64,000 nt of DNA from Tubulanus polymorphus (Eukaryota > Nemertea > Palaeonemertea > Tubulaniformes > Tubulanidae), in contig NC_134028.1 of NCBI RefSeq assembly GCF_964204645.1, positions 6,861,001-6,925,000 on the forward strand, written 5' to 3'. The position numbers were made by a program, and so were the translations under genes. The notes beneath the pieces were generated by a model. That model saw only the letters and a list, made by a program, of their open reading frames with translations. It did not search any database and was not told the origin of the DNA. Every line of letters begins with the position of its first letter. Position 1 is the first letter of the stretch. Positions 469 to 20,073 of the stretch are shown here, piece by piece.

Positions 469-3400
469 GTCATGAAGATACCACCTATAATAACTATGTC
501 TACACGACGACCGGGAATTATCAACCAGTTACCGATTGCAGTCCCATGTTTGCGTTGGATTGTGAAATGGTACGAAACCATGTCTTCTTTTGATATCGTG
601 TTAAAACAAACTTACAGTCAAAACCAGCTTAATCCGGATCGGCTTACCGTCATCTGGATTTTGGTCTAATTGCAATCCATTTGTACATGGATATACAAGA
701 AAATGACTTAATCCGGATTTCCCATAAACTGGATTAATTTTGCCAAATGATCCGAATTAAGGGGATTCTACTGTATAGATATATGATGCATCAGCTCTCG
801 AATTCGAAAATGTTTCAAAATCGGTTTTTGTAGGTGATGACTACTGCAAAAACGAATGAACTAGCGCGAGTGTCCCTCATCTCAGAGGACGGAATTTGCA
901 TTTACGACAGTTTAGTCAAACCATACAACAAGGTTATTAATTATCTTACAAAGTAAGTCATCTGGAAGCATTCGAAAAGCATGGCGTGTGGGTATGCAGA
1001 GCTCAATTTAAATTATCTATTTATTTTATTATTGTTTTTACTTTATTTCCTGCGTAAATTAAAAGAGTATAATCAAGTACATCATGTTTATAAAATTGAA
1101 TATGATAATATGATCATTATAATTGATAAAATGTTATGATATATCAGTGGGACAACATAAAGAAGCAAGGCTTGTGACGTATGCTGACCAAAAAAATATA
1201 TATATTTACAGGTATAGTGGTATTACGAAGAAAATGATGGATCCAGTACAAACTCGTTTAAGAGATGCACAACGAACCATACAGAAATTGTTACCACCAG
1301 ACGCGATATTGGTAGGACAATCTATGGCCAATGATCTGAAAGCTTTAAAGGTAAAGTGTTTCGTTTAATATCTTAGTGCGGAAAAACTAGCACATCGTAG
1401 TAGAATTATTATTAGACTATTTAAAACTGAAAAATTAAGGCTAACAAAAAATTTATTCCCATACAAATTGAAAATAGATGAAAAGTTTGCCAATTAGCAG
1501 TTTTTCCTATATCACGAGTTATGTGACAAGATGTCGATATCGTTGTATTTTGTAGATGTATCATCCGTATGTCATTGATACGAGCGTTATCTATAACCAA
1601 AGCGGTCAACGAACTAGAAAAACTGGCCTTGCTCGCCTCACTCAAATTTTCTTTGGGTAAGTTTTGGAAAATCTTCATTTCTAGGTTTTGTCTTATTGTC
1701 CATGGTTCAGAGCAGTCGTTGAAAGCGTTTGAACTTAGGAGGGCTGGTGAAGGTGTTAGAATTGAGATGCATCGGCGAATTTTCAGAACTCTCAACCCAT
1801 TTACTGTTTCGAATTAGTGCGATGGGATCATTCATTTATTACGTACGCACAAAATTTGAATTTTTCAACCCCCCTCCCCCCATGTACACAAAAGCGGTCA
1901 TTTTTTCATATACATTAAGCATTACAGTACACAATGGCACTTACCCCTCCCCTAATGCGTGCGTAATAAATGAATGACCCCGATTCAGTTCTGGTGAATT
2001 GTTGTCGATTTTCTTTCAACAGTACTGTAATTCAAGCTGATTCTGGTGGACATAATCCAGTCGAAGATGCTTCATCTGCATTGAATTTAGTTCTGTTGAA
2101 ATTAAGTAAAGGTAAAGAAAAAATCCATGACCAAGTTCCGTGATATTGCTGGCTTAATTAAATACCAACATTAATACGTATTTCCAATAACTTAACTGAG
2201 GTCTTAGGCAATTAATAGAATAACGATTTTTATTTCAGGGTTTGAATTTGGCGATGTACTTATGTCGCAAAACGTATCTTATACGGAGGCATCTCACTCG
2301 GCTACCGCAGTTGGCTCCTCTTCGATTCCGCCCGTATCATTCCAAACGCATCGCGAAATGAAAATTTCTAATGATGATCACGACAGTAAATTGATTTGCG
2401 TCGAGGAAAAATGTGATAAAACAATTGCTAAAACGACGGATAATGAAAAGCTGAGTGATAGGCTAGAGATAGGCGATAGCGGGAAAGCAGTAACTGAAGC
2501 TTGGAGAGACGAAGTTAAGATGAAAGTGTTTTATTCCTGTGGATCGAAATTGTACGATGACTTTTTCGCTAAGATTAAGACCTGCGACAGAACCGGTACG
2601 AAAGCTTAAAACATAGTATCCAATTCCATGAAAAAGTTAAACTCAATTTGATGTCTTCATTAGTTCCGTTTAGCGGTACCGTATGATTTAGGGGTTAATC
2701 TTTTTCGTGAAAGTGGCCAGTCCCAGAGCATCACACACAAAACATTAGAAAAATCCCTGTATTTGAAGCAAGCATCATTTAGTTTATTTTATGATTATAT
2801 ATTTAACAATTACGTGTGTACATCTTTCACCTAAATTTGAGAGATGATGAAAAACACAAATAAGTTATTCAAGTTGTTCAATAACTGATTTATCAATTCA
2901 AAAGCAAGACTAAATTTGAACAAATGGACGTAATAATAATCACAATGATAATAATAATTTCTTTGTTTATATAGTGCTATAGTATGAAATAATCATAGCC
3001 CTTTACATAAAAGAGGTTAAAATAATACATGTAATAATCATAAAATTGTTGAAATACCACTCGAATACAAGAACATGAAAATTAATTGTAAGAAACATCA
3101 TACAATGGTCAAAGCTTTCCTAAAAAGGTGATGAAGTGTACATGTATACAGATATAATGTTTTGATCAATATTCTTTGATAAACCTTTGAAATTTTGCTA
3201 TCGTGAGGATTATATTTAGATCATGTAAGGCAATAGTGTGATTAGTAACTTGTGACGTTACTGATAAAAGTTTTCTATTTGATATTTTCAAGGTGTTGTT
3301 ATTGATAAAAAGTCTAATGCTACACACGAAAGTGACTACATTAATTATGAGTATTGCGACGATTATGATGAAATCAGCAAGAAGGCTGCTTCGACTATTG

Positions 3401-4006
3401 CGAAATTTGACTTTGCGTTTATTCGTTTGGAAGGCTACAGAAAATATACCGTTGATTCAACCAAGATGGATGAAAACCTTGAGAAAAGACTGGTACGTGT
3501 GAATCTATGATTTTGGCAAATTTCAAGGTCATTAGTTTTTGTACGTGTTCACCAGGGCGCATTGGATTTAGCAGAATAACTCTGTTTCGATATGTATGTA
3601 CCTAGGCATTTTTTGTTACAGCAAAATGTTGCTAAATTTTCGCATATGGTATATTTATGCTTTGCTTTAATGGTCATTAGTTCTGTATTTGTTCACCGGG
3701 GGCCTTGCATAGCACAATTAAGTGGTTCAGTAGGGGCTGTTGAATATTGAAATTGTCAGCATTTCACTAAGTTGGCATGCTGTCCCTGGATCCCTATTTT
3801 ATAATCAATAGCGTTTTTCTTCGTAGGATTGTTTGAAGCAGTTAGACTCTCGCGCGAAAGAGCTACACGATTTGTTCCCTAACAACTCGGTTGTGGTGGT
3901 ATTATTAACCGGCAGGAAAACACCGACCACTACGAGTAGCATCGAGAACGCGCTCTGTTTCATGAAAGTGACCCATTCACCGGAACGGACTTCTCCGAAA
4001 CATTGA
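469..4006 (+). CDS. REXO5-like: REXO5-like RNA exonuclease, copy A (5' end outside window)
   Basis: DEDDh-type 3'-5' RNA exonuclease; the family trims nuclear RNAs such as snoRNA and rRNA precursors. Exons read directly, all with AG/GT borders: 469-569, 834-952, 1212-1350, 1556-1656, 2023-2111, 2239-2595, 3293-3492, 3827-4006 (TGA). Exo I is FALDCEM in the first exon, Exo II is ILVGQSMANDL in the third, and Exo III is HNPVEDASSALNL in the fifth, so the acidic residues and the catalytic His are all present. The His usually seen before Ser in Exo II (VGHS) is Gln here and in copy B. Exon 7 (about 67 codons) looks like part of the C-terminal RNA-binding region of REXO5. The sixth exon has an acidic linker 46 codons longer than in copy B. 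Upstream exons expected from copy B would lie left of base 1. A polyadenylation-like AATAAATAAA lies near 4087. REXO5 is the best family match because of the YSGITKK, LLPPDA and HPYVIDTS blocks. Confidence 0.88.
615..773. repeat. pogo/Tigger-like MITE in intron of REXO5 copy A
   Basis: About 159 bp between TA dinucleotides (613-614 and 774-775). The left end CAGTCAAAACCAGCTTAATC and the reverse complement of the right end CAGTAGAATCCCCTTAATTC are similar imperfect terminal inverted repeats. The CAGT start and TA target are typical of pogo-type Tc1/mariner relatives. No coding capacity. Confidence 0.6.
1824..1981. repeat. Short inverted-repeat element (MITE), copy 1
   Basis: The ends read GATCATTCATTTATTACGTA... 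and, inverted, GGTCATTCATTTATTACGCA..., giving imperfect terminal inverted repeats of about 25 bp. The interior has C-rich tracts. A diverged second copy in opposite orientation lies at 57977-58134. This copy sits in an intron of REXO5-like copy A. Confidence 0.6.
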
Positions 4007-4260
4007 CCTGCCAGCAATTTCTTATTGAAGATTTTAAGAATGTTTAAACCTGTTATGAATCTGGTTATAGATGTTTATCATCATGTAAATAAATAAACAT
4101 ATGTCTATATTATCGTAAAATTAAATATTTTGAGTCGTTTATATTTTATGTTATGTATAAAGTACTAGGATCCACCGGTACCAGTGAATTCGGTATACTG
4201 TTCAAGTCAGCGAATTTTAATTTATTTCTTCTACAATGAATTCTCAGCTCAATAACGTAG
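4007..4260. other. 3' flank of REXO5-like copy A
   Basis: AT-rich 3' flank with a polyadenylation-like AATAAATAAA at about 4087. Nothing else recognisable up to the open frame beginning at 4261. Confidence 0.5.
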
Positions 4261-4370
4261 GCGAAGTCCGAGTTAAGGATAGGAGAATATGTTAGGAAGT
4301 CGGAAAAAATGATTTCGTTTTTGTTCGGAGTTATTGTAGTAAACAGCGGTATTTCGTTTCCAACGCGACT
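4261..4370 (+). pseudogene. Open frame interrupted by the palindromic element, left part
   Basis: From a possible acceptor (TAG at 4258-4260) the frame is open for 36 codons plus two bases to the insertion point. It continues in the same frame at 17723 once one GCGACT copy is ignored. The left part contains KMISFLFGVIVV, which is hydrophobic. No family recognised. It may be an exon of a host gene or of an older mobile element. The only support is that the frame reads through the insertion point. Confidence 0.35.
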
Positions 4371-4782
4371 AGTAATAGGGATAATAGGCTTTCATACCAA
4401 AGGTCGAAAGGTCGAGCTCATTAAAAAACAAAATATTAAAAGTAATTAAAAACTATAATATATTTTCATAACCGCGTGCATTTTATATCAAAACTAAATA
4501 TTTATTCTAAGATATCAATAATTTTAAATGCATATTGTATTAAATCAATTGGTCGCTCCGCTTCGCTACCGCTCCGCTCCGCGACCAATTGATTTATTTA
4601 CAATACACAAATTCAAATAATCAAATATATTTTAATGATAATAATTATTCTATTATTCTATTATTCAACTGAAATGCACGCGGTTATGAAAATATATTAT
4701 AGTTTTTAATTACTTTTAATATATGTTTTTAATGAACACGACCATTCAACCTTTGATATGAAAGCCCATTATCCCTATTACT
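4371..4782. repeat. Left terminal foldback within the terminal inverted repeat
   Basis: This 412-bp end is itself a palindrome. The outer terminus AGTAATAGGGATAA recurs inverted at the inner edge (TTATCCCTATTACT, ending 4782), with arms of over 100 bp that include AACCGCGTGCAT. The centre at about 4549-4591 is a GC-rich hairpin CAATTGGTCGC...GCGACCAATTG. The whole block occurs inverted at 17313-17716. Confidence 0.85.
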
Positions 4783-4838
4783 CTTAAAATATTCATATAA
4801 ATGAATAAAATATAAATAAAAAAAAATATAGTATTAAA

Positions 4839-5978
4839 ATGGAAGCAAATAAGTACTACTGCCCAACATGTAATAACGATATAGACAAGTCTCAAAAAGC
4901 AAGACACAATAAAACTAGAACACATTTAGAAAATAAATTGAAAATAGAGTATAAAGATGATATATTAGAAACTAAATTAGAAGAATTAAAGAATGAAAAA
5001 GAAACATACAAATGTGATACATGTAATCAATCATTCAGTGATAAAAGATATTATAAAGAACATTTAAAATCTATAAGTCATATTAGAAATAAGAATAATG
5101 ATATTTTAGGTGAAGATTATTCTGATAATGATAACGATAAGAAACAGAAGACAATTAAAAGCATAAAAAATAAATTAAACAATAAAAGATCATACATGGA
5201 AGATGTAAGAAATTATATCAATTCATTAGATAATAAAAAAGATAAAGAGATAACCGAAGCATTTAAAAGTGATATTGGTCCAGCAGCTATCGAGTTTAAA
5301 TTTCATAAAGGTAAAACATTAGAAGAAAATAAAAAACATTTAGAAAATATGAAAAATATTATAAAAATAATTACAGATGTTGAATATCCTAAAATTAGTA
5401 TATCAGTTAAAGTAAAGTTTATAAAATCTGAAGATAAACCAATATATAATATAAATTCTCATTCACAACATATTATATCTAAACAACATATAGATGATAA
5501 ATTAGATAAATGTTATAATGAAGTAAAAACTAAAATAGAAGAGAAATATTTTGAAGGATCTGGTTTAATATTTGATGAGATAATATTTATAACTTTACAT
5601 GTTTATAACACAAAATATAATAAGTTAACTAAATCAAAACCAATTGATGAAAATAATTTATCATATTATAAAGAACCAGATATTGAAGCATCGAGTTATA
5701 TTAAACTACCATTTAAAACTAATGCTGTAATAAATATACAAAATGAAGATGATAAATGTTTTCTATGGGCTATAATAAGTTGTTTACATCCAACAGAAGA
5801 TATTACACATAGTTTTAGATTAACTCATTATAAACCATTTGAAAATAATTATAAGATAGATAAGTATCCTGTTAGAATTAAAAACATCCCAAAAATAGAA
5901 AGAGATAATAATATAAAGATAAATGTATTTGATTTAATCAAATTACCAAATACCAATAAGGGTAAAAAAATATTTTAA
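4839..5978 (+). CDS. Two-zinc-finger protein of the palindromic element (379 aa)
   Basis: The N terminus has two U1/matrin-type C2H2 fingers: CPTC...H...H at residues about 8-30 and CDTC...H...H at about 59-81. A lysine- and asparagine-rich linker follows. At about residues 245-370 is a block with GSGLIF, SYIKLP, INIQNEDDKCFLWAI and CLHP, ending near NIKINVFDL. From memory this order (fingers, then an INIQN-DDKCF block, then NVF) matches the N-terminal section of long element-encoded proteins that carry a B-family DNA polymerase further downstream. Very AT-rich codon use, unlike the flanking genes. The right arm keeps only the first 38 codons (17232-17119). The ORF ends at a point where the two arms diverge, so its C terminus may be truncated. 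Function unproven; nucleic-acid binding is likely. Confidence 0.7.
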   Translation: MEANKYYCPTCNNDIDKSQKARHNKTRTHLENKLKIEYKDDILETKLEELKNEKETYKCDTCNQSFSDKRYYKEHLKSISHIRNKNNDILGEDYSDNDNDKKQKTIKSIKNKLNNKRSYMEDVRNYINSLDNKKDKEITEAFKSDIGPAAIEFKFHKGKTLEENKKHLENMKNIIKIITDVEYPKISISVKVKFIKSEDKPIYNINSHSQHIISKQHIDDKLDKCYNEVKTKIEEKYFEGSGLIFDEIIFITLHVYNTKYNKLTKSKPIDENNLSYYKEPDIEASSYIKLPFKTNAVINIQNEDDKCFLWAIISCLHPTEDITHSFRLTHYKPFENNYKIDKYPVRIKNIPKIERDNNIKINVFDLIKLPNTNKGKKIF

Positions 5979-6048
5979 AGCGTAAGGTTTCAGCGAACTC
6001 TAACTCTTTTTGAATTTTAACCTATTTTAATAAAAATTTGATATATAA

Positions 6049-8327
6049 ATGTGCACAAGATTAATTAAAGTTCCCGCGAAAGACATGAGTAATAAATATA
6101 TAAATTCAATATTATATTATTTAACTGTTAACAATAATTTAGCAGATATTTCAGGAGTAAATATAAATAAGTATTATAAATCTGAAAATAATGAATTAAT
6201 TGAAACATCAGATATATTTTGCGATAATATAATGCTATATAAAATCATGTGAGAAAAAGAAATTATAAAAGAAAATAGAACAACTTTTCTAAACATTAAT
6301 CAGAGAAAGATAACACATTATGAAATTAAAGAATGTTTTAATCAAGGAGATATTATATTGGATAACTTAGCTATAAAAATTACACGTGTTTTAACAATTC
6401 ATGATGATAATTCAAAATCATATATATTAAGTAGAATTAATCAAGAATTAAAATTAACAGATTATATTGCTGTATTTAAAATTTCATTATGCAATCAAAA
6501 TTTAAATGAATTAATACAGAAAATGGATAATATTGAAAAATTATTAAATGAAAAAAATTACAATATATTAGATGTAGATGTGACACAAGATTTTAAAGGA
6601 TCATTTAATTCAGATGAAATAAAATCAATGTTCGAAAATAGAAAATATAAAGTTCTAAAAGAATTTTCCAATAGTTGTGTTTCAGCATTACATAAGGATG
6701 ATAAAATAAAGATCTATAATAAAACAGCATGTCAATTCAAATCTCCTGGTGTAGATATAAATTTCGGTTCAAATTTAATGAGTTACATAAATTGCTATCA
6801 AGAGAGGTTAAAAGAATCATTTGAAAAATCAATTGAAACAGGATTGATTAGAATTGAAATAACAAGTATTTCATTTAAAAGAGGATTAAAAGTGATGGAA
6901 AAAATAAAACAATACTTAAAAAAAGAAAATATTTACTATTCACCTACATATTTACAACTTAAATCATTATTTGATGAGGTTCAACAGACTGTATGTATTT
7001 ATGATTTGATTGAAAAATGCTTTTATTTCTGTTATTATGGTGATTTATTAGCAAGGAAATTTATAGGATATAAATCTAGGATAAGTAAAAATATTGAAGA
7101 GTCCTCCTTTTTACTTATTTTATCAATGTTTACAATTAAGAATATCCCATGTTTATACCTAACAATTAATCAAAATGATGATAAATCAGCATTCATTATT
7201 GAAGCAAAAAAATATATTAAAACTGAAGGAGCAACTGTTATATCTTCAACTAATTCAATGTTTACAGTATTGAATAAATTTATATTTAGATTTAAATTAC
7301 GTGAAACAGGAATTAGTTTTACAACTTTAAAAAAGAGATACAATATAAAATCTAAACCTTTTTATAAATTAGATGCACTTGATATTGAAGAAGATTTTGA
7401 TTTAAAATTATTATCTAAAAGTGAATTTAAAAAGTTAGAAGAAATGAAAGAACTTAAACAATTACAAGAAGATATAGATGAAAATAGAAATAAAATTTGT
7501 AATGAATTAAAGCAACAATTAGATATTGATAATGAATTATTTGAGACAGAATTTAAAAAACTTGAAATAATTCCTGAAGTAAAATTAAATGATTATACTC
7601 CTAAAATATCTGGAATTGACAATAATACAATTTTTGAAATTAGAGGTTTTTCAACTCAATGTAAATGTATAACAGATCTTTATTTCAGTTATATTTTTTA
7701 GCAGATCAAGGCTTTTATGAAACTACTACTGATTTAAGAGAATTATTGATAAAAACATTACAATTAGACGTATTAAATAATAATTATTTTGAATTGTCTT
7801 CGATAGAAAAAATCATCAAAAAGTTAAAAATAGGCGTTCATAGCCCTGATAGACACTTTATTTTATCAAAATTAGAAAAACCTATTTTCCAAGTAAAGAA
7901 GATAACACACGATCATTTTGAAATAATTGATAAAATGGATTTTGAATTGATGAAAAAATATACTGAATATTTAAAGATAAATTCTAATGATTTCATAAAT
8001 GTATGTGATATACGTAAAGAATCTGATTATTTAAGAAAAATGAAACTTAACAATATGAAAATTAAGCAATGCGAGCGTTTAGAACTATTGAAAGATAATT
8101 CTGAATATAATATTGATTTCATTAATCCTAGATATTTTAGAAATAAATTGCGCCATCTAATTTTAATTCATAATGATGAAAATATTTACATATCAAATGA
8201 ATTTTTCGATAAAGAAATGATCAAGAATAATATAACAGAATATCAGGTGATAAAATTGATTACGCACAAGCAAAAATATAATTCTCAGCGGCATAAAGAA
8301 TTAGTAGTAAGTTTAATTGTTATTTGA
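6049..8327 (+). pseudogene. Replication-region-like protein, left arm, two breaks
   Basis: Three blocks that appear to be one reading unit: 6049-6252, 6358-7701 (447 codons) and 7665-8327. The first two share a frame and are separated by a TGA at 6250-6252 with open sequence after it. The second and third are joined by a -1 frame change at a run of six T (7694-7699), immediately before a TAG. Recognisable patterns are DVDVTQDF, IYNKTACQF, and GLIRIEITS preceded by a leucine-rich stretch. From memory these occur, in this order, upstream of the polymerase domain in long element-encoded proteins. Both breaks are present in the right arm too. Either the gene was already broken before the palindrome formed, or the breaks are recoded. 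No catalytic motif identified. Confidence 0.55.
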
Positions 8328-8384
8328 ATTGAAACATATAAATATTTAACATTTTATAAACTGTTTAATTTCTTTCTTAAATAA

Positions 8385-8582
8385 ATGGATGGTTTCATCC
8401 CAACTGGGAAAAGTGATTTGAAACATCATCTTGTAGCAGGAGGATTAATATTGGCTGCGCTTTATTTATACTATGAGAATATTAGTAAGGATTTGATGAA
8501 TGAAAATATAAAATTGAGCAAGAAATTGAAAAAATTAAATGGAAATAAAAATAATCATAAAAAAGTTATTGAATCAGATTAG
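8385..8582 (+). CDS. Small single-pass membrane protein, left arm (65 aa)
   Basis: Starts MDGFIPTGKSDLKHH, then one hydrophobic segment (about residues 16-30, LVAGGLILAALYLYY), then a lysine- and asparagine-rich tail with coiled-coil-like spacing. The identical protein is encoded in the right arm at 10096-10293. Conservation between arms only shows recent duplication. No family assigned. Element-encoded small membrane proteins are common in virus-like elements, but that role is inference. Confidence 0.6.
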   Translation: MDGFIPTGKSDLKHHLVAGGLILAALYLYYENISKDLMNENIKLSKKLKKLNGNKNNHKKVIESD

Positions 8583-8598
8583 TGAATTAATTAAATAA

Positions 8599-8823
8599 AT
8601 GAGTGAAAATATATTAAACTTATTACATCTAATATATAAAAATCAACAGAATATTAAATCAATTATTATGCTTACAGGTTTATTTTCTTTTTCAATTTAT
8701 AGTATAAAACAGTTGTTAGAATTCTATGATTGCTGTAAAATTAGATACACTGAATTAATAGAAAATATGAATTATATTTCAGATAGATTGATTTCTATTC
8801 AAATAGATTTAACAAGAATATAA
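8599..8823 (+). CDS. Membrane-segment protein, left arm, C terminus lost
   Basis: Starts 16 bp after the previous stop. It has a hydrophobic segment near residues 21-37 (SIIMLTGLFSFSIYS). The first 64 residues match the right-arm ORF at 9777-10079. At 8788 the sequence switches into the central palindrome, replacing the C2H2 finger seen in the right arm with about ten unrelated codons. This is a truncated version. Confidence 0.55.
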   Translation: MSENILNLLHLIYKNQQNIKSIIMLTGLFSFSIYSIKQLLEFYDCCKIRYTELIENMNYISDRLISIQIDLTRI

Positions 8824-9283
8824 ATTTATAAAATAAAATCCTAATTCAAAATATTATAGAATTCACTGTATATTGATGGATGAGTGGATGAATTGGATGA
8901 ATTGGATGAATTGGATGAGTGGATGAATGGATGAGTGTAATAATATATATATTTTACTTTTTAACACATAAATTGGAAGAATAGTATGAGTATAAATATA
9001 ATATTTATATTCTTTATTAAATTTAACACAATATATATATATTATTAAAATAATATTTAAATATAATATAAAATTGATAAAATAACTTCAAATCAAACTC
9101 TTACTGTTTTAAAAATAAAAAACATATGTAAATTATATATTATTACACTCATCCATTCATCCACTCATCCAATTCATCCAATTCATCCACTCATCCATCA
9201 ATATACAGTGAATTCTATAATATTTTGAATTAGGATTTTATTTTATAAATTTATATTCTTGTTAAATCTATTTGAATAGAAAT
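8788..9283. repeat. Central palindrome of the element
   Basis: Inverted copies at 8788-8990 and 9080-9283 enclose an AT-rich loop of about 90 bp. The arms start and end with TTTCTATTCAAATAGATTTA and its complement, and carry a GGATGAATT/GGATGAGT tandem repeat (8877-8937, complement 9131-9197). The 28-bp outer block recurs a third time at 9371-9398. This is the symmetry region between the two gene-bearing arms. Confidence 0.85.
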
Positions 9284-9370
9284 CAAAAAGATTTAAATAA
9301 AAAAACAATAAGTTACTTTATCTAGTACTAACTTATTTAACTTATTGTTTTTTTATTTAAATCTTTTTGG
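9284..9370. repeat. Second, adjacent hairpin
   Basis: An AT-rich inverted repeat: AAAAAGATTTAAATAAAAAA to AACAATAAGTTA at 9285-9315 pairs with 9337-9368, around a short loop containing CTAGTACT. It lies between two opposite copies of the 28-bp block, so the element centre is a nested hairpin, not one simple fold. Confidence 0.8.
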
Positions 9371-9398
9371 ATTTCTATTCAAATAGATTTAACAAGAA

Positions 9399-9776
9399 AT
9401 TCAATAACTTTAACTGTTAGTATCACTCTTGTATTATTTCATTGTTTCTCTTATTGAATAAGCCAACTAACTAATATCACTCTTGTATTATCCTAGTTAA
9501 ATGTAAAGAATTTAAAATATCATACTTGAATGAATTAAAACATAAATTACTTCTGTTACTTCATTTTCAGAAATAAAGCATAATATGTATTCAATACCAT
9601 TAATACGTATTTAATACCATCAATACGTATTTGATACGTATTTAATACATGGTATTAGGGTATCTAATAGGGTATCTAATACATTGATACCTCAACCCCC
9701 CTTTTTTATTAACTTTTATTTTCATACATTTCAACTAATATATTTTATATTTTCAGCTAATTTAACAGTCGATTTC
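9399..9776. other. AT-rich spacer at the inner end of the right arm
   Basis: No ORF of note. It holds a short repeated phrase (ACTAATATCACTCTTGTATT at 9468-9487, similar at 9416-9437) and ACGTATTTAATAC-type repeats at 9598-9680. There is no left-arm counterpart, so this sequence was lost from the left arm when the palindrome formed or afterwards. Confidence 0.5.
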
Positions 9777-10079
9777 TTATTTTGATTCATATAATTTTTC
9801 ATCAAGTTCATGAATATACATGTGATTTCTCAAACTCTTTTTATTTTCATATCTTTTATTGCATATTTCACAGCATTTAATATTATTCAATCTATCTGAA
9901 ATATAATTCATATTTTCTATTAATTCAGTGTATCTAATTTTACAGCAATCATAGAATTCTAACAACTGTTTTATACTATAAATTGAAAAAGAAAATAAAC
10001 CTGTAAGCATAATAATTGATTTAATATTCTGTTGATTTTTATATATTAGATGTAATAAGTTTAATATATTTTCACTCAT
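9777..10079 (-). CDS. Membrane-segment plus C2H2 finger protein, right arm (100 aa)
   Basis: The longer form of the left-arm ORF at 8599. Residues 1-64 match, including the hydrophobic segment. The C terminus carries a classical finger, CEICNKRYENKKSLRNHMYIH with C-x2-C and H-x3-H spacing, then ends. A membrane segment combined with a C2H2 finger in 100 residues is unusual. No known family. Either the protein is membrane-anchored with a zinc-binding head, or the ORF is the tail of something larger. Confidence 0.6.
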   Translation of the reverse strand: MSENILNLLHLIYKNQQNIKSIIMLTGLFSFSIYSIKQLLEFYDCCKIRYTELIENMNYISDRLNNIKCCEICNKRYENKKSLRNHMYIHELDEKLYESK

Positions 10080-10095
10080 TTATTTAATTAATTCA

Positions 10096-10293
10096 CTAAT
10101 CTGATTCAATAACTTTTTTATGATTATTTTTATTTCCATTTAATTTTTTCAATTTCTTGCTCAATTTTATATTTTCATTCATCAAATCCTTACTAATATT
10201 CTCATAGTATAAATAAAGCGCAGCCAATATTAATCCTCCTGCTACAAGATGATGTTTCAAATCACTTTTCCCAGTTGGGATGAAACCATCCAT
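10096..10293 (-). CDS. Small single-pass membrane protein, right arm (65 aa)
   Basis: Residue-for-residue the same as the left-arm ORF at 8385-8582. It lies 16 bp upstream of the next ORF on the same strand, the same spacing as in the left arm. Confidence 0.6.
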   Translation of the reverse strand: MDGFIPTGKSDLKHHLVAGGLILAALYLYYENISKDLMNENIKLSKKLKKLNGNKNNHKKVIESD

Positions 10294-10374
10294 TTATTTA
10301 AGAAAGAAATTAAACAGTTTATAAAATGTTAAATATTTATATGTTTCAATTCAAATAACAATTAAACTTACTAC

Positions 10375-12629
10375 TTATTCTTTATGCCGCTGAGAATTAT
10401 ATTTTTGCTTGTGCGTAATCAATTTTATCACCTGATATTCTGTTATATTATTCTTGATCATTTCTTTATCGAAAAATTCATTTGATATGTAAATATTTTC
10501 ATCATTATGAATTAAAATTAGATGGCGCAATTTATTTCTAAAATATCTAGGATTAATGAAATCAATATTATATTCAGAATTATCTTTCAATAGTTCTAAA
10601 CGCTCGCATTGCTTAATTTTCATATTGTTAAGTTTCATTTTTCTTAAATAATCAGATTCTTTACGTATATCACATACATTTATGAAATCATTAGAATTTA
10701 TCTTTAAATATTCAGTATATTTTTTCATCAATTCAAAATCCATTTTATCAATTATTTCAAAATGATCGTGTGTTATCTTCTTTACTTGGAAAATAGGTTT
10801 TTCTAATTTTGATAAAATAAAGTGTCTATCAGGGCTATGAACGCCTATTTTTAACTTTTTGATGATTTTTTCTATCGAAGACAATTCAAAATAATTATTA
10901 TTTAATACGTCTAATTGTAATGTTTTTATCAATAATTCTCTTAAATCAGTAGTAGTTTCATAAAAGCCTTGATCTGCTAAAAAATATAACTGAAATAAAG
11001 ATCTGTTATACATTTACATTGAGTTGAAAAACCTCTAATTTCAAAAATTGTATTATTGTCAATTCCAGATATTTTAGGAGTATAATCATTTAATTTTACT
11101 TCAGGAATTATTTCAAGTTTTTTAAATTCTGTCTCAAATAATTCATTATCAATATCTAATTGTTGCTTTAATTCATTACAAATTTTATTTCTATTTTCAT
11201 CTATATCTTCTTGTAATTGTTTAAGTTCTTTCATTTCTTCTAACTTTTTAAATTCACTTTTAGATAATAATTTTAAATCAAAATCTTCTTCAATATCAAG
11301 TGCATCTAATTTATAAAAAGGTTTAGATTTTATATTGTATCTCTTTTTTAAAGTTGTAAAACTAATTCCTGTTTCACGTAATTTAAATCTAAATATAAAT
11401 TTATTCAATACTGTAAACATTGAATTAGTTGAAGATATAACAGTTGCTCCTTCAGTTTTAATATATTTTTTTGCTTCAATAATGAATTCTGATTTATCAT
11501 CATTTTGATTAATTGTTAGGTATAAACATGGGATATTCTTAATTGTAAACATTGATAAAATAAGTAAAAAGGAGGACTCTTCAATATTTTTACTTATCCT
11601 AGATTTATATCCTATAAATTTCCTTGCTAATAAATCACCATAATAACAGAAATAAAAGCATTTTTCAATCAAATCATAAATACATACGGTCTGTTGAACC
11701 TCATCAAATAATGATTTAAGTTGTAAATATGTAGGTGAATAGTAAATATTTTCTTTTTTTAAGTATTGTTTTATTTTTTCCATCACTTTTAATCCTCTTT
11801 TAAATGAAATACTTGTTATTTCAATTCTAATCAATCCTGTTTCAATTGATTTTTCAAATGATTCTTTTAACCTCTCTTGATAGCAATTTATGTAACTCAT
11901 TAAATTTGAACCGAAATTTATATTTACACCAGGAGATTTGAATTGACATGCTGTTTTATTATAAGTCTTTATTTTATCATCCTTATGTAATGCTGAAACA
12001 CAACTATTGGAAAATTCTTTTAGAACTTTATATTTTCTATTTTCGAACATTGATTTTATTTCATCTGAATTAAATGATCCTTTAAAATCTTGTGTCACAT
12101 CTACATCTAATATATTGTAATTTTTTTCATTTAATAATTTTTCAATATTATCCATTTTCTGTATTAATTCATTTAAATTTTGATTGCATAATGAAATTTT
12201 AAATACAGCAATATAATCTGTTAATTTTAATTCTTGATTAATTCTACTTAATATATATGATTTTGAATTATCATCATGAATTGTTAAAACACGTGTAATT
12301 TTTATAGCTAAGTTATCCAATATAATATCTCCTTGATTAAAACATTCTTTAATTTCATAATGTGTTATCTTTCTCTGATTAATGTTTAGAAAAGTTGTTC
12401 TATTTTCTTTTATAATTTCTTTTTCTCACATGATTTTATATAGCATTATATTATCGCAAAATATATCTGATGTTTCAATTAATTCATTATTTTCAGATTT
12501 ATAATACTTATTTATATTTACTCCTGAAATATCTGCTAAATTATTGCTAACAGTTAAATAATATAATATTGAATTTATATATTTATTACTCATGTCTTTC
12601 GCGGGAACTTTAATTAATCTTGTGCACAT
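10375..12629 (-). pseudogene. Replication-region-like protein, right arm, same breaks
   Basis: Mirror of 6049-8327. Blocks on the minus strand are 12629-12426, 12320-10977 and 11013-10375. The same TGA separates blocks one and two (12428-12426), and the same T-run frame change joins blocks two and three near 10984-10979. The middle block differs from the left arm at three residues (K-I/T-Y, V-D/N-I, S-A/E-F). The last block ends eight codons earlier because a TTA codon is TAA here. Confidence 0.55.
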
Positions 12630-12718
12630 TTATATATCAAATTTTTATTAAAATAGGTTAAAATTCAAAAAGAGTTAGAGTTCGCTGAAACCTTACGCTT
12701 TAAAATATTTTTTTACCC

Positions 12719-13033
12719 TTATTGGTTGAATAATTGTGTTAATCTAGATCTTAAGCATTGTTTCAATCTAAAATTAAGATCTGTTTGATATCTTTCTCTC
12801 ATATATTTTGTCATATAATAATTATAATGTTCTATATTATCTTCTCGATATTGTTTAGTATATAGTTTAATGCAAGTTTTACAGTAATATTGAAAACCAT
12901 CTTTGCTAATCTTACGCTTACTAAATTCTGTTAATGATTTATCTAATTCACATTTAGAACACTTCTTGTAATATATGTTTATAACACCAGTGTTATTTGT
13001 AATATTGATAGTTTGTGGTTGTTCTGGTTCCAT
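12719..13033 (-). CDS. HNH-type zinc-ribbon fragment (104 aa), right arm only
   Basis: At residues 22-55 is CSKCELDKSLTEFSKRK...YYCKTC, the CxxC...CxxC ribbon that precedes the HNH nuclease motif in many phage and giant-virus homing-type endonucleases. It is followed by a YMRERYQTDLNFRLKQ-type helix, also usual in that group. The HNH core that should follow is missing: the ORF stops at the junction where the two arms diverge (about 12725). Probably a truncated HNH endonuclease gene. It has no copy in the left arm. Confidence 0.5.
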   Translation of the reverse strand: MEPEQPQTINITNNTGVINIYYKKCSKCELDKSLTEFSKRKISKDGFQYYCKTCIKLYTKQYREDNIEHYNYYMTKYMRERYQTDLNFRLKQCLRSRLTQLFNQ

Positions 13034-13558
13034 TTATTATACATATTTTTTTACTGAATTGGTTAATATTTTAGAATCCTCTTCCATTTCTTCGACCAAC
13101 GTCATCCTTTTTCATTCTTCGTTGCTTTTGATAAGTTGTTTCGATTCCTTGATATCTAAATAATACCAGTTACAATACCCGCGTCACATGCTGCTATTTA
13201 TAGCCGGTTTTGCTTAATGCACATGCGTTAATCATAATTATATATTCATTCTATAAATTCTGTAAAATAGAAACAACTGAACATAGAAAATTCGAACGCA
13301 TTCATGTCCCTCGTCACATGCGTTACATGTGTCACATGCGGCCATTTATGGCCGGTTTTGCTTAATGCGCATGCGTTAATCATAATAGAAACGACTGAAC
13401 ATAGAAAATTCACAAATCAGATTTACACAATACATTATACAAGTTGTTCAGTCATTTCTTCCAATACATCATTTGATTTCTATAAATACAATTTATAATT
13501 ACAAACATTTTTCAATTGCCGGTAAATATTTAACTACATCAACAAATGTTAAACTTAA

Positions 13559-13742
13559 TCATTGGAGTCTTAATGTTTTTGAAATTCTTATATTTCTTCT
13601 TCGATCTTTTGGTGATTCTATTGGTTCGATATCCATTGCTGTTGATTCCTCAGGTAGAAAGAGTATCTTGAGTTTCTCTATCGCTTCTTGATGCGTATGA
13701 CTTTTTATTAATCTAAAAGATATTAGCGGCAACTCTAGCCAT
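13559..13742 (-). CDS. Possible coding exon, unknown
   Basis: On the minus strand a good acceptor (polypyrimidine tract then CAG ending 13743) opens a frame of about 60 codons to a TGA at 13559-13561. It contains SHTHQEAIEKLKILFLPEE and ESPKDRRRN. Amino-acid composition looks protein-like, but no partner exon or family is recognised. Could be a host exon or part of a mobile element caught in the right arm. Confidence 0.25.
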
Positions 13743-14261
13743 CTGAAAGATATACTAAATACACTTAAATATATCTAAAGGTTTCATATTTAATAGTCTT
13801 AATAACTACAACAAACAGTACTTACATTTAGATTTATAATTGTAAACTATAAACTCCTAATTTCGTTTCGAAAGATAGAATATCCTGAGCACAATATTAC
13901 AGCGTATGTTCATTTCCGGGGCGATTTCTAGAATGACACGTCGTTGATTATGCCACGTCATCTAGTTCCGGTTCTAGAGTGTTCTCTCTGCGAATTTTTT
14001 TTTCACACCATGTCAGATAGCCACTGCGCATGCCCAACTCAGTTTCGCTTCCGGACTGCATGTCGCAATGCATGAAGAAATCCATGATGTGAACGACAAA
14101 ATCTACTGTCGACTCTTGACTAAATATAAGCTGTGGTAGGAGGCCTAGCGCCAGCCAATTGACCATGATTGACTACTTGCCAGCTTCGCGTCTCAGACCA
14201 GTAGGAAACCGAAGTAAGTTAATGGTTTCATTCTTTTTACAGGCACGTTTTTCCTTCTTTG

Positions 14262-14350
14262 ACTTTAATTCAATTCAATTCAATTCTTTATTATCATACA
14301 TGATTGTAGATGCAATGCAATTGTAACAAAAATAAAATGATATAAAATAG
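14262..14350 (-). repeat. Probable non-LTR retrotransposon 3' tail
   Basis: On the minus strand an AT-rich stretch runs to ATAATAAAG followed by tandem GAATT units (14265-14290). This resembles the tail of the LINE at 17921, which ends in GAATAATAAA units. No coding part remains. Confidence 0.4.
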
Positions 14351-15563
14351 AATAAAACACAACACAACATAAGCATTAGACTTATTCGTTATACAAGAAT
14401 ATGTATATATACATGTACATTCTACTTAATATATTACCATTAAGTGACAATTTTTTATTTATAAGTTGGAAAACCCAAAAGCTGTAAACTGTCCTAGGCT
14501 ACGTGTCATTAGTGGGGACGAAATGATTAATAGGAATTTATCTTCATCAGAGAAACTATTATTTGGGAATATAAGAAATGTCGGAATTGCCCAAAATTTG
14601 GCCTGTCAGTGTCAGACCCCCGCTGTCAGACCACAGCTCCCTCATTTGTAGGCTCAAACTGTGACGGTAGAAATCTGAACTATTAACATTCTATTAAGAA
14701 TTTGCAACTTAAACTTTTGAAGCCAATTAATGTCTATTGTAAACATATAGGCCTAAAATCATGACAGTGTATGTGTTGAGTGTGATAAGCCGCAATACCG
14801 AGTTGTGTAGATCTTCTCCCAAAATTTGCAGAGAACACCTCCGCAGGCTTTACACTCTAGCGCTTCTGACGCCTGCTCCACCAACCTCCCAAGACGCAAC
14901 GAGTCCTATTTAAAAACGTGCGGCACCTCATAAATCAGACAGTTTTGGTCAAATTCACATAAGATGCCAACCAAATTTCTCTGTTTTAATTTTAGGCAAA
15001 GAATATTATCGTGATACTAAAATGTAGTTATTAAATAATGTGAACAATGCTTAGATAACAAGTATGGATTCAGCTATAGTAACGGTAAGTTGATTTTATA
15101 TCACAAGTCCTTTGTGTGAGGTTCTCTACAGGGGGTCATGGAATACGGAATACTAATTTGAAGTGGAATACAGCATAAAAAGCTGAAAATTGTCGATTTT
15201 GCTGAAATTCTTGGAATACAAGGAGAAAACTGTCTTGTTTTGCCATCGGAATACGGAATACAGGGATATTTTCCAGATTACATATGCCAAATTCCTTGGA
15301 ATACAGCATACAAACACCCTGTCGAGGGCCTCTTGTGGTTTCCTGTCTTCGCACTGGGCATAAAATATCTTGGACGAGTTTCTTGTTGCTGACTGGCCGC
15401 CATTAATGCATGGTTCCCAGCTTACCGGGAAAACGGGAAAAAGTAGGGAATTTAAAAATTGAATTCCCGGTTGGGAAAAGTCAGGGAATTGATCAAAATT
15501 TGATAGAATCCGGGAAAAAGTAGGGAATTACAAAAACTCTGTTCAGATAGTCATGTCAGTTGA

Positions 15564-16374
15564 TTGGTATATGATGTTATATGTAAATCTGTACAATATT
15601 TCTTATGGCTATTATCTTTATTACATGTGCCTGATATTGACACAGCATATGAAAATATTTCCCGCAGGAGAATCAGTCAATTGCGTATTCCGCCGACCAG
15701 TTTTGGACAGTTCACTGTCGTGGAGGAACATTCTGCTGAAGTTGGTGATCTTTTAAAGTATCCGTCCATTCTGCCAGAAAATGTATGCACCACTCTTATC
15801 AAGATATTGGACTCCAAGCCCAATCATATTGTTAAATTTTCGCATTGTTCATATGATCGTGGAGCTCTTTCTTTCTGTCGTATTATTCAAAGTTGGCGTC
15901 AGATACAAATTGAGGTTGAGAGGGAGGATACCTGGTTTAAAACCCTCAAGAAAAAGATATGGTATACCAAAGAAATGGATGGACACCTGAGCAAGTATCA
16001 TAGCATTGTAAACAATTCCCCATACAATTCCTCTCTTGGTGAGCCATTATCCTACCTGTCACCCATGAACCTGTGCAGGTTTTCTTGCTCCAGTTGGTAC
16101 AGCGAATTACAGTTTAATGCTATTGGCTATATATACTGAACGAGAAGACCGAAAAACTGTATACATTTCCGATTGGGGATAAAGCTGTTTTAAAGGACAG
16201 TTACAGTTATTATGTTATGTTTTGTATTGTTAATTTTGACAATGTAACTTCTGTTATTACTGATGATCATACTGGCAAACACTGGACATTTGTATTATAT
16301 GACAAAGTAAATAATTGTATATATTATCAGAACTTTCTTCATTTTAAGGGAAATAGCCAACCGGTCTGCTTATA
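15564..16374 (+). pseudogene. Possible Ulp1/C48-like peptidase remnant
   Basis: A 191-codon ORF (15564-16139) followed by an overlapping open frame (about 16118-16374). The second frame contains GKHWTFVLYDKVNNCIYY, which resembles the His-Trp segment of Ulp1-type SUMO peptidases (HW-hydrophobic...YY/YD). The ORF before it has a CSSWYSELQFNAI stretch, reminiscent of the WLxDxxIN region. No catalytic Cys block was found and a frame break separates the halves. A polyadenylation-like AATAAA follows at about 16606. Ulp1 domains are common cargo of eukaryotic DNA transposons, so a decayed transposon gene is my reading. Confidence 0.3.
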
Positions 16375-16980
16375 AGTACTGATGGCAATTTGAAAGAAAT
16401 ATTAGACTTCCATGACACAAACTTAATTAAAAATGTTGAAAAAATTTTATCCTCACCAACATTTGCAAAATGGGTATTTTTTAGGGATAACAGGGGCAGG
16501 GTTATGCTATATATTAATGAATGTAATGTAACCATCTAAAAGGCTATTTTTGTATTAATTTAATTTTGTAATATTTTTGTATGCGTTTCTGATGCCATTT
16601 GATATTGAATAAACCTTCAATTTGCAGTTCTTTCTTAAGTTTCTTTTATCAAATTATTATCTGAGATATTTTTTGGATGATGTGATCTGTGTGGATTTTA
16701 CTCTCATAAAATTTATATCATTACTGTTTGTGTGTGACTACAGGGCCATCAAAATGCAGCAGATGATATTTCGGCATTAAAAAGTCACGTGATGCATGTG
16801 AACATGTTGTAAACGCTACAACAAAATGGCGGACCTGGTGTGAAAAAAAAATTCGCGTTCTCTCTCTCTCTCTGCACGTTTGTAATAATGAGTCATAAGT
16901 CTCGGCGTCATTGTAACAGCTGTAACAGCTGTGAATTTATAGATTTATTCTATAGCTCTGTACATTGAATGTATATAGGT

Positions 16981-17232
16981 TCAAATAGAATCATTTTCTA
17001 GTATAAACATCGGATCCTTGATATCAAATTCCTCAACGTATTGTTCATTATTTGGATCATTATTCCATAATTCAATAAATTTCTTTCCCTTTGTTAACTG
17101 TTCTGAATATAACTGTAAATATTCTATTTTCAATTTATTTTCTAAATGTGTTCTAGTTTTATTGTGTCTTGCTTTTTGAGACTTGTCTATATCGTTATTA
17201 CATGTTGGGCAGTAGTACTTATTTGCTTCCAT
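16981..17232 (-). pseudogene. Zinc-finger ORF, right arm, recombinant C terminus
   Basis: The first 38 residues (one C2H2 finger) equal those of the left-arm ORF at 4839. At about 17124 it changes to an unrelated acidic tail of about 45 residues ending in ENDSI. Whether the tail belongs to another part of the original gene or to the inserted segment cannot be told. Confidence 0.5.
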
Positions 17233-17312
17233 TTTAATACTAAATTTTTTATTAAAATTGATTTTAGAAGTTCAATGATTTATATTTTATTCATTTATAT
17301 GAATATTTTAAG

Positions 17313-17716
17313 AGTAATAGGGATAATGGGCTTTCATATCAAAGGTTGAATGGTCGTGTTCATTAAAAACATATATTAAAAGTAATTAAAAACTATAATA
17401 TATTTTCATAACCGCGTGCATTTCAGTTGAATAATAGAATAATTATTATTATTAAAATATATTTGATTATTTTAATTTGTGTATTGTAAATAAATCAATT
17501 GGTCGCGGAGCGGAGCGGTAGCGAAGCGGAGCGACCAATTGATTTAATACAATATGCATTTAAAATTATTGATATCTTAGAATAAATATTTAGTTTTGAT
17601 ATAAAATGCACGCGGTTATGAAAATATATTATAGTTTTTAATTACTTTTAATATTTTGTTTTTTAATGAGCTCGACCTTTCGACCTTTGGTATGAAAGCC
17701 CATTATCCCTATTACT
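17313..17716. repeat. Right terminal foldback within the terminal inverted repeat
   Basis: Inverted copy of 4371-4782, slightly shorter (404 bp). It also has AGTAATAGGG at its inner edge (17313) and CCCTATTACT at its outer edge (17716), with the GC-rich hairpin at about 17498-17541. Similarity to the left terminus continues inward to about 17124. Confidence 0.85.
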
Positions 17717-17858
17717 GCGACTGACTAAAGCGGGGGTAGTGTTTTATGAAATGGATGTGATAAAAGCGAAATTACATAAATGTGTATTTGATGTAGAAGA
17801 AAAGTGCCTTAAAGAAAATCTCAGGCATACGATCGTACGTATTCCGGTTAAGGAATGA
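17717..17858 (+). pseudogene. Open frame interrupted by the palindromic element, right part
   Basis: Continues the frame of 4261-4370 from the second GCGACT copy and ends at TGA 17856-17858. It contains AGVVFYEMDVIKAKLHK and CVFDVEEKCLKEN. The whole joined frame would be about 82 codons. No family recognised. Confidence 0.35.
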
Positions 17859-18252: not shown

Positions 18253-20073
18253 CTATTGACCCGTTAACAGATACTGCTTGAAATTCTTTTTAAATACATA
18301 AACATTCTTCGACTGCTTTAAAGTTGAATCGAGTGAATTCCAAAGTTTTGGACCAGAAACCTTTACCGAAAATTTATTTCTTCGAGTTTGAAATCGAGGG
18401 ATTTCCATATTGTTTTGGCTACGAGTTTGATAATTGTGGATTTCATGTCGAAATTGAAAATAGTTATTAAAAGAATCAGGTAGCATGGATTTGTTATAAT
18501 TAAACATGAAGCATCCTAACTGTAATTTGTTCATTCCTTTAATTCTCAGTATTTTCAGTCTTTTAAAGAGTGGATCAGTATGTTCTAAATAATATGAATT
18601 TGTTATTATTCGAACCGCACGTTTTTGAAGTAGTAATAATGAATCTAAATAGACATTAAAATTTTGAGCCCAAACTATGTTACAATAACTTAAATACGGT
18701 TCCACTAAACTAAAATACAATTGAATAAGAGTTTTCTCAGGTAAGAATCGTTTTAATCTATTTAACATACTGATACTCTTCGATACCTTGCGTTGAACAT
18801 TATTGATATGATCAATCCATGAAAGTTTATCGTCAATATTTATACCCAAAAAATTTGTGCTATGAACTTGATCAATATTAATTCCGCTGATTTGAATCGA
18901 AATGTTAAGTGGTAGTTGTGAGCAAAATACCATGCAATGAGTTTTTGGCAAGTTTAAAGATAATTTATTAGCGTAAAACCACGTGGCTAGTTTATCAAGT
19001 TCACTAGACACGGTCAATGCAAGGTGATGAATATCGGAACCGCTCGCAAAGACATTAGTGTCATCAGCAAAAAGCGTAAATTTCAAAATGTTGCTGACAT
19101 TAACGCAGTCATTTATGTATATTAAAAAAAGTAACGGTCCCAAAATGGAACCTTGAGGCACACCAGTAGATATATTCAAAAGTTGAGACTTACAATTTTC
19201 AATTTGAACAGTTTGTTGTCGGTTTTCCAAATAATTTCTAAACCAGCAAAGTGCGCGACCTTTAATTCCATAAAAATCTAATTTTGACAATAATATTTCA
19301 TGGTTGACTGTATCAAAGGCTTTGGATAAGTCCAAATAAACACCGATAGTGGGATTTTTATTTTCAAGATTATATGAAATTTCATCAATAATTTTGATGA
19401 CTGCCATGGCAGAGGAGTGATTCTTTCTAAAACCGAATTGATTTGAATTTATGATAGAAAATTTATCACAATAAGACATTAGTCTGTTGTACACGACTTT
19501 TTCAAGAATCTTTGAAAAGCAAGGCAAAATTGAGATAGGCCGGTAATTATTAAAGTTATCTTTGTCACCACTTTTGTATAAAGGTCGAATTCTAGCGATT
19601 TTTAATTTGTCCGGAACAATTCCAGTCTGTAGACTCATGTTAAAAACATGGCAGAGAGGATCTTTAATTAAGTCAAAAATTTTTTTAGTTACTTTCATGC
19701 TAATCTCATCGGTACCCAAACCTTTATTGGAGTCAAAATTTTTTACTATATCCATCAGTTCGACTGGTGTTGTTGGGAATAAAAAGAAGTTTTCATTTGG
19801 GCTGTTATGCAGGAAATCCTTAAAATTTATATTTGTGCTAGGGATCTTTTCGGCAAGCTTATTACCGATGTTTACAAAGTACTCATTAAATTTATTAGCA
19901 ATGTTAGCTTTTCCATTTATAGGTGTCCCATTAAGTTTGAATACGTCAGGTAATTCTTCCGAGTTTGATGACTTACCAAGAATATTGTTAATAATTTTCC
20001 ATGTTTGTTTCATATCATTAGAAGCCGAAAATAATTGCACACCGTAATAGGATTTTTCTGCACATTTTAACAA
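18253..20073 (-). CDS. Reverse transcriptase of the non-LTR element (606 aa)
   Basis: RNA-dependent DNA polymerase of a CR1/Jockey-type element; it primes at a nicked chromosomal target. Visible RT motifs in order: IARIRPLYKSGDKDNFNNYRP (fingers), GVYLDLSKAFDTVNH (motif A, catalytic Asp), TGVPQGSILGPLLF (motif B), LFADDTNVF (motif C, catalytic Asp pair), then LGINIDDKLSWIDHI and a C-terminal thumb/tail. This block is one uninterrupted frame, so it is well preserved. The endonuclease upstream lies in other frames, so a full ORF2 cannot be made. Confidence 0.9.
   Translation of the reverse strand: MLKCAEKSYYGVQLFSASNDMKQTWKIINNILGKSSNSEELPDVFKLNGTPINGKANIANKFNEYFVNIGNKLAEKIPSTNINFKDFLHNSPNENFFLFPTTPVELMDIVKNFDSNKGLGTDEISMKVTKKIFDLIKDPLCHVFNMSLQTGIVPDKLKIARIRPLYKSGDKDNFNNYRPISILPCFSKILEKVVYNRLMSYCDKFSIINSNQFGFRKNHSSAMAVIKIIDEISYNLENKNPTIGVYLDLSKAFDTVNHEILLSKLDFYGIKGRALCWFRNYLENRQQTVQIENCKSQLLNISTGVPQGSILGPLLFLIYINDCVNVSNILKFTLFADDTNVFASGSDIHHLALTVSSELDKLATWFYANKLSLNLPKTHCMVFCSQLPLNISIQISGINIDQVHSTNFLGINIDDKLSWIDHINNVQRKVSKSISMLNRLKRFLPEKTLIQLYFSLVEPYLSYCNIVWAQNFNVYLDSLLLLQKRAVRIITNSYYLEHTDPLFKRLKILRIKGMNKLQLGCFMFNYNKSMLPDSFNNYFQFRHEIHNYQTRSQNNMEIPRFQTRRNKFSVKVSGPKLWNSLDSTLKQSKNVYVFKKNFKQYLLTGQ

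Follow-up and report, generated by a model that had tools for sequence, protein, structure and literature searches.

A 64,000-nucleotide window of the genome of the nemertean Tubulanus polymorphus (NC_134028.1, positions 6,861,001 to 6,925,000) contained a 13.3-kb element at 4371-17716, which began with AGTAATAGGG, finished with CCCTATTACT and was surrounded by a 6-bp target-site duplication, GCGACT. These ends, the duplication and the 412-bp terminal block at both ends had been described in a first-pass annotation made from the letters alone, and all were borne out. The outer parts of the element were those of a Maverick/Polinton, and two inverted copies of another repeat, here designated X, occupied the place of the Polinton core from 5954 to 12724 (Table 1). 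We interpret the element, with a probability of roughly 0.7, as a Maverick/Polinton in which X, a mobile element in its own right, has taken the place of the core as a palindromic dimer, made through an X nuclease and turnaround at a hairpin. For comparison, the genome assembly of 268 Mb in 77 contigs was searched; fetched loci were named L0xx, and the reference Polinton had 18,273 positions.

Measured against this reference, a core of 15.5 kb (positions 1603 to 17144) was gone from the window copy, which lacked PolB, the rve integrase and the packaging ATPase. The unmirrored parts at 4.95-5.95 kb and 12.7-17.1 kb corresponded to the normal left and right ends of a full-length Polinton and were non-homologous beyond the normal terminal repeat. 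The right end comprised about 2.1 kb and was interrupted by an unrelated insertion of about 2.9 kb (13992-16868), which had the inverted ends GCGAATTTTTTTTTCACACC and GGTGTGAAAAAAAAATTCGC and was absent from L021. The two inverted arms of more than 4 kb proposed earlier held as a large inverted repeat, but one made up of an internal repeat of 2,851 bp (5952-8802 versus 9876-12726, 99.6% identity by BLAST), with shorter blocks at the centre, and of separate ordinary terminal repeats of about 0.6 kb. Instead of a single hairpin, the centre held a palindromic stretch followed by the X hairpin. A TGA codon (6250-6252) and, near 7.69 kb, a change of frame interrupted the protein-coding stretch of the left X copy, leaving open reading frames (ORFs) at 6049-6252, 6358-7701 and 7665-8327, and the pieces in the right copy were ORFs 12320-10977 and 11013-10375. 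As previously noted, the 447-amino acid (aa) ORFs of the two arms differed at three residues.

Table 1. Features of the X-bearing Polinton in the window (window coordinates)
Feature	Position	Strand	Remark
Target-site duplication, left copy	4365..4370		GCGACT
Target-site duplication, right copy	17717..17722		GCGACT
Polinton terminal block, left	4371..4782		412 bp, imperfect palindrome
Maverick/Polinton left end	4371..5953	+	Normal, 1.58 kb
ORF, 379 aa	4839-5978		Start of the ORF preceding PolB, cut by X; counterpart of 505 aa in L017
X, left copy	5954..8815	+	Outer end CAATAAGGG at 5954
Region with similarity to the 758-aa X protein	6049..8327	+	Rep_trans-like, broken
Small X ORF	8385..8582	+	65 aa, membrane segment by eye
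Palindromic stretch	8816..9258		In the X centre here; also mid-Polinton in L013, L015, L021 and L026
X inner end	about 9271..9383		Hairpin-forming
X, right copy	9274..12724	-	Outer end 12724, inner hairpin about 9274-9380
X protein stretch, right copy	10375..12629	-	Same TGA and frame change
X ORF	9777..10079	-	100 aa, weak C2H2 zinc-finger match under the Pfam cut-off
Polinton right end, inner part	12725..13991	-	Normal
ORF, 104 aa	12719-13033		Start of an HNH-like ORF (named by eye), cut by X; counterpart of 221 aa in L018
Polinton right terminus	16869..17716	-	Includes the 412-bp block 17305-17716

X was about 3.4 kb long and contained an ORF for a 758-aa protein and two small ORFs, with one precise outer (5′) end and one hairpin-forming inner (3′) end. 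The arm DNA had at least 44 matches in the genome (best 40 of 59 candidates, a few being pieces of one copy), and a second X search gave at least 42 (best 40 of 83 candidates). Forty X flanks were read, 12 of them within longer loci and 28 in short fetched sequences, with L029R and L061 representing the same junction. The outer end CAATAAGGGTAAAAAAATATTTTAAAGCG was present with no more than four edits in 39 of them and missing at L058. Polinton DNA was found in 38 of the 39 flanks bearing this end, the match at L056 being a weak one of 56 bp; none was found at L050. When 11 poorer flanks were compared at the protein level, eight were supported as Polinton, and L050, L052 and L056 gave no protein match. 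One further insertion lay inside X itself, at L029. Because the arm recurred at many genomic sites with a fixed outer end and Polinton flanks, the palindrome is, on sequence grounds, that of X, a repeat distinct from the Polinton and present in many other Polintons. The inner end folded well below shuffled sequences, with z scores of -12 to -25 at three loci and -5.8 at L035. Positions 3551-3753 of L035 held a tandem pair of hairpin units whose loop was longer than that of L029, and the loop orientation may vary among copies.

The search with the 412-bp terminus that the first-pass annotation had recommended returned at least 40 matching places in the same genome (best 40 of 1,484 candidates), including full-length relatives with polymerase and integrase. 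Ten paired Polinton copies were fetched from these matches. Nine had spans of about 15.8-19 kb and were collinear with L017/L018 (C6:14658718-14676990), which encoded DNA_pol_B_2, a Pox_A32-type ATPase and an rve integrase whose chromodomain match fell slightly short of the cut-off; judged by their sequences, these nine are ordinary Maverick/Polintons. Pfam, used to look for a double-jelly-roll capsid protein, matched neither the 415-aa nor the 462-aa ORF of L018/L017. The tenth pair, C2:15068549-15080182 (L013, L014), was an X-free head-to-head dimer of the Polinton right half, with arms of 3.66 and 1.07 kb that were 99.2-99.4% identical and a duplication ATTGTT. Among 11 elements tested, 10 carried 6-bp duplications, including the window element. 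At L023/L024 (C1:15254950-15273603) the inverted repeat ran about 200 bp past the ends, without a 6-bp duplication. The label "Polinton-like" was thus correct for the ends and duplication of the window element but not for its mirrored genes, which were found in none of the 10 paired copies and belong to X. Chance is ruled out for both the terminus and the arm, since each recurs across the same genome. The terminal block itself, at both ends an imperfect palindrome, had a strong branched predicted fold (z -20.6), which we take to be comparable to a parvovirus terminus.

The insertion sites of X showed both a preference and a polarity. An intact counterpart could be read for 22 distinct sites, of which one lay in X and the other 21 in Polintons. 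The intact DNA was C^AAA at 14 of the 22, against a background of 0.7% of Polinton positions, although the motif was picked once the sites were known and its p-value is a guide only; the recount was rule-based and gave the same total with the closest or the commonest intact copy. A C preceded the join (position -1) at 19-20 of the 22 sites, compared with 12% in the background. The strand test covered 38 rows, with L058 and the duplicate L029R left out. After setting aside six rows in the terminal repeat, where the side is indistinguishable, and one unmatched row, the remaining 31 represented 21 distinct sites. At every one of these 21, the X outer end faced the nearer Polinton terminus, and the strand joining X had that terminus as its 5′ end (the calls for L049, L030, L062 and L053 rest on matches ending 86-183 bp before the join). 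All were located within 5.3 kb of a Polinton end, whereas gene direction alone would allow left-side sites up to about 11.9 kb. Of the available CAAA sites, 40 of 94 lay within this distance, so that the observed 12 of 12 left-side sites would be unlikely on gene direction alone (3.5e-5). This polarity would be predicted if X inserted into the strand displaced during protein-primed replication, protein priming of Polintons being assumed here from family knowledge. The right junction of the window element was also found at L032 and L048, and its left junction was seen at no other locus read.

Palindromes of X were not confined to the window. Among the 42 matches, all nine opposite-strand X pairs less than 12 kb apart faced inwards. 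L029 held a palindrome of 6,842 bp with 99.85% identity, which would represent a full turnaround. The L030 (7.74 kb, duplication ACTGCC) and L031 (7.63 kb, duplication GCTAAC) elements were mirrored from both Polinton ends inwards, flank included, over 3.09 kb at 99.5% and about 2.96 kb at 98.7%, respectively; both palindromes had asymmetric centres, and part of the L030 flank had no match to the reference Polinton. Mirrored flanks occurred at four of the nine paired loci, those of L041/L063 being 99% alike and those of L046/L060 only 94%. The flanks were unlike each other in the window, L029, L039/L052 and L040/L059, and L036/L058 was truncated on one side. Other X copies adjoined Polinton DNA at inner positions and would represent partial turnarounds: in L068 a palindrome of 304 bp at the hairpin, equivalent to some 150 bp of copying back, gave way to Polinton DNA, L064 halted at X position 2616 and ran backwards into the Polinton left end, and in L065 an inverted X stretch adjoined Polinton DNA.

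In a comparison covering 1,930 bp of X, the arms of a locus differed from each other at six positions in the window, four in L029, five in L030 and seven in L031, and the element is young, as had been suggested. The left arm of the window also differed from the right arm of L030 at five positions, so that the arms of a locus were not always mutual nearest copies. Private variants common to both arms numbered four in L029, two in L031 and none in L030. Because arms share such variants, most of the palindromes appear to derive from one template each. In a comparison of 13 rows, the TGA codon and frame change shared by the window arms were missing from the other 11, and one further substitution shared by these arms was unique. 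Because of these shared changes, the window palindrome was probably made from one X copy that was already broken, unless the arms underwent gene conversion. The 758-aa ORF was open in five arms among the 13 rows, namely both arms of L029, the right arm of L030, L033 and L034.

Comparison of the X protein and its relatives with Pfam, PHROGs, NCBIfam and PDB sequences yielded nothing usable, and no relative was found in IMG/VR or phage records. A PHROG "replication protein" match for P0003 (E 0.05) was not used. Protein database searches gave at least four proteins for the window ORF, at least seven for a profile (four already within it) and at least five for P0007, itself included. A TBP-like crescent fold was predicted for the family, and Foldseek and VIA grouped the model with TBP and RepSTK1/RepDE. 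The catalytic residues of RepDE are D46, D142, the catalytic Tyr and E214 according to sections of PMC4797284, and the Rep_trans motifs were taken from sections of PMC6499999. Residues matching those of RepDE were kept in the same order in the sequences reaching each of them (D 10/10, D 11/11, Y-x-K 11/11, E 10/10), and in the predicted model each was placed on a separate strand. A second model, built for a closer relative and of low confidence (P0002, predicted local distance difference test score (pLDDT) 40), used for cross-checking only, gave the same placement. Three acidic metal ligands and the catalytic Tyr, corresponding to motifs N′, I, III and IV, were conserved by sequence order and strand placement, and the X protein would be a nuclease dependent on Tyr and metal. 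Because the PF02486 (Rep_trans) profile did not match it, the protein is termed Rep_trans-like and not a member of Rep_trans. The HUH motif was absent, with no histidine among the invariant or near-invariant columns of 11 sequences. VIA-align placed no HUH nuclease among the matches listed, which excludes nothing, and Pfam gave no helicase match in the X protein. The distant relatives P0007-P0011 had 557-588 aa and longest contigs all of 2.05-2.56 kb; these contigs may be complete small replicons.

The model builds on the two X ends, the site preference, the orientation rule, the palindromes, the duplications, and the predicted fold with its residues. During Polinton replication, the X nuclease would cleave C^AAA sites on single-stranded Polinton DNA, and the terminal Polinton fragment would be joined through its free 3′ end to the 5′ end of X. 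On reaching the X hairpin, the polymerase would turn and retrace X and then the flank as far as the Polinton terminus, so that the double-stranded product would be palindromic and would end in a Polinton terminus on either side. A Polinton integrase, acting in trans, would then insert the palindrome with a 6-bp duplication. The first and last states of this model are seen in the genome, and we infer the steps between them. For the window alone, an extra recombination or a switch between X-bearing molecules would be needed, because its two flanks differ and its right junction is common to L032 and L048.

Several points qualify this model. The window flanks are not mirrored to both termini, unlike those of L030 and L031. 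In L029 the inner end lies at the centre of an almost perfect palindrome, so that it must fold. In addition, a limit on product size would likewise confine the sites to the neighborhood of the Polinton ends.

The first-pass annotation had taken the window element for a Polinton-like genome in head-to-head dimeric form that had been integrated as an intermediate of replication. The Polinton ends, the 6-bp duplication and the genuine X-free dimer on C2 agree with such an origin, and the symmetry does fit the integration of an unusual product of linear-genome replication. However, the Polinton parts of the window are one normal left and one normal right end, non-homologous outside the terminal repeat, and the mirrored genes are foreign to the paired Polintons. 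The dimer was therefore rejected for the window on its layout and accepted for the C2 locus, and as an account of the window it is very improbable. An assembly or library artefact from fold-back reads is even less credible: long palindromes of near-perfect identity are familiar as artefacts, but inward-facing X pairs were found at nine loci with differing flanks, the arms were separated by point mutations and the centres were asymmetric, which makes such an artefact unlikely.

Two explanations that accept X as real deserve more weight, although we regard both as unlikely. If X were a cut-and-paste transposon with 3.4-kb terminal inverted repeats, a palindromic dimer could have been inserted and the Polinton core deleted; the clean L029 palindrome with its two precise outer ends and the precise Polinton sites of both outer ends in the window, on opposite strands, would be as expected. 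Neither a target-site duplication nor contiguous target halves were present beside X in the window, L029, L030 or L031, however, and the flanks of L030 and L031 were the same Polinton stretch mirrored. Moreover, only a single outer end was found in L034, L035, L064 and L068, and Pfam scans of X contained no transposase-like domain. About as doubtful is the idea that one Polinton subfamily carries X as an accessory gene cassette and that host repair produced the palindromes as secondary inverted duplications in which X plays no part. X nearly always adjoins Polinton sequence, and the C2 locus demonstrates that X-free Polintons can also turn palindromic. Against the cassette stand the constancy of the outer end across about 20 different positions in Polintons, the preference shown among sites, the X found within X, and the single polarity of all nine pairs. 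L030, L031 and the window also carry Polinton-type 6-bp duplications outside the palindrome, and therefore moved after the palindrome had formed, or formed it in transit. Outside the element, the minus strand at 18253-20073 carried a 606-aa ORF resembling, by eye, the reverse transcriptase of a non-LTR (long terminal repeat) retrotransposon.

The palindromic Polinton with X resembles several known systems in part. With Mavericks/Polintons (adintovirus-like) the window element shares the terminal repeats and the 6-bp duplication, but it has X instead of their core. Helitrons, IS91 and Replitrons have a precise 5′ end, a short target motif and a 3′-side hairpin, and use HUH nucleases, in Helitrons together with a helicase. 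X has the same layout of end, target and hairpin but shows neither HUH nor helicase. Copy-back defective genomes and the rolling-hairpin replication of the adeno-associated virus (AAV) type give mirror-image derivatives by turning back at a hairpin, whereas here a foreign mobile element, X, provides the hairpin. Transpovirons and virophages are parasites of a larger DNA virus-like element; X differs from them in covalently joining the genome of its host element, and no capsid gene was recognized in X. With Rep_trans (PF02486; Reps of pT181-type plasmids, MOBT relaxases) the X protein shares the predicted TBP-like fold and the order of D, D, Y-x-K and E on separate strands. It differs in the missing profile match, its eukaryotic genome and its much larger size, and X integrates into another mobile element while Rep_trans plasmids stay circular. 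Rep-Arvir proteins, the Reps of archaeal viruses and plasmids, are described in parts of PMC13107129 as tied to Rep_trans by structure alone, with a hairpin near the origin and a MarR-like domain. X is likewise kin to Rep_trans by (predicted) structure only and has a hairpin; Rep-Arvir, by contrast, is archaeal and has the MarR-like domain. Two viral fold matches reported there, A0A2N9QVX7 and A0A345MNV4, ranked 1 and 4 in our fold search.

Among the open-licence papers listed in literature searches, no title or abstract opening described an X-like element, an absence that is no proof. As a tentative proposal, to which we give somewhat less than even odds, X may be the first of a new class of eukaryotic mobile elements that are hairpin-ended and single-stranded, use a Rep_trans-type nuclease and live only by attacking Maverick/Polinton genomes. 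Such an element would cut the displaced strand at C^AAA, turn around at its hairpin and travel as a Polinton, perhaps in Polinton virions, and the distant relatives on 2-kb contigs would be its free-living cousins. The model is testable through the recurrent C^AAA sites and the X copies with an unbroken frame. Rep_trans-type nucleases are apparently restricted to bacteria apart from a new archaeal branch, according to portions of PMC13107129 (2026), and Maverick virions have not been observed, as stated in portions of PMC8097293. The symmetry of the window looks like that of a replication product, made by the Polinton parasite X. If this is true, Rep_trans-type nucleases would occur in eukaryotes and Mavericks would have a parasite in an animal, and the insertion strand together with the turnaround products would resemble snapshots of Maverick strand-displacement replication.
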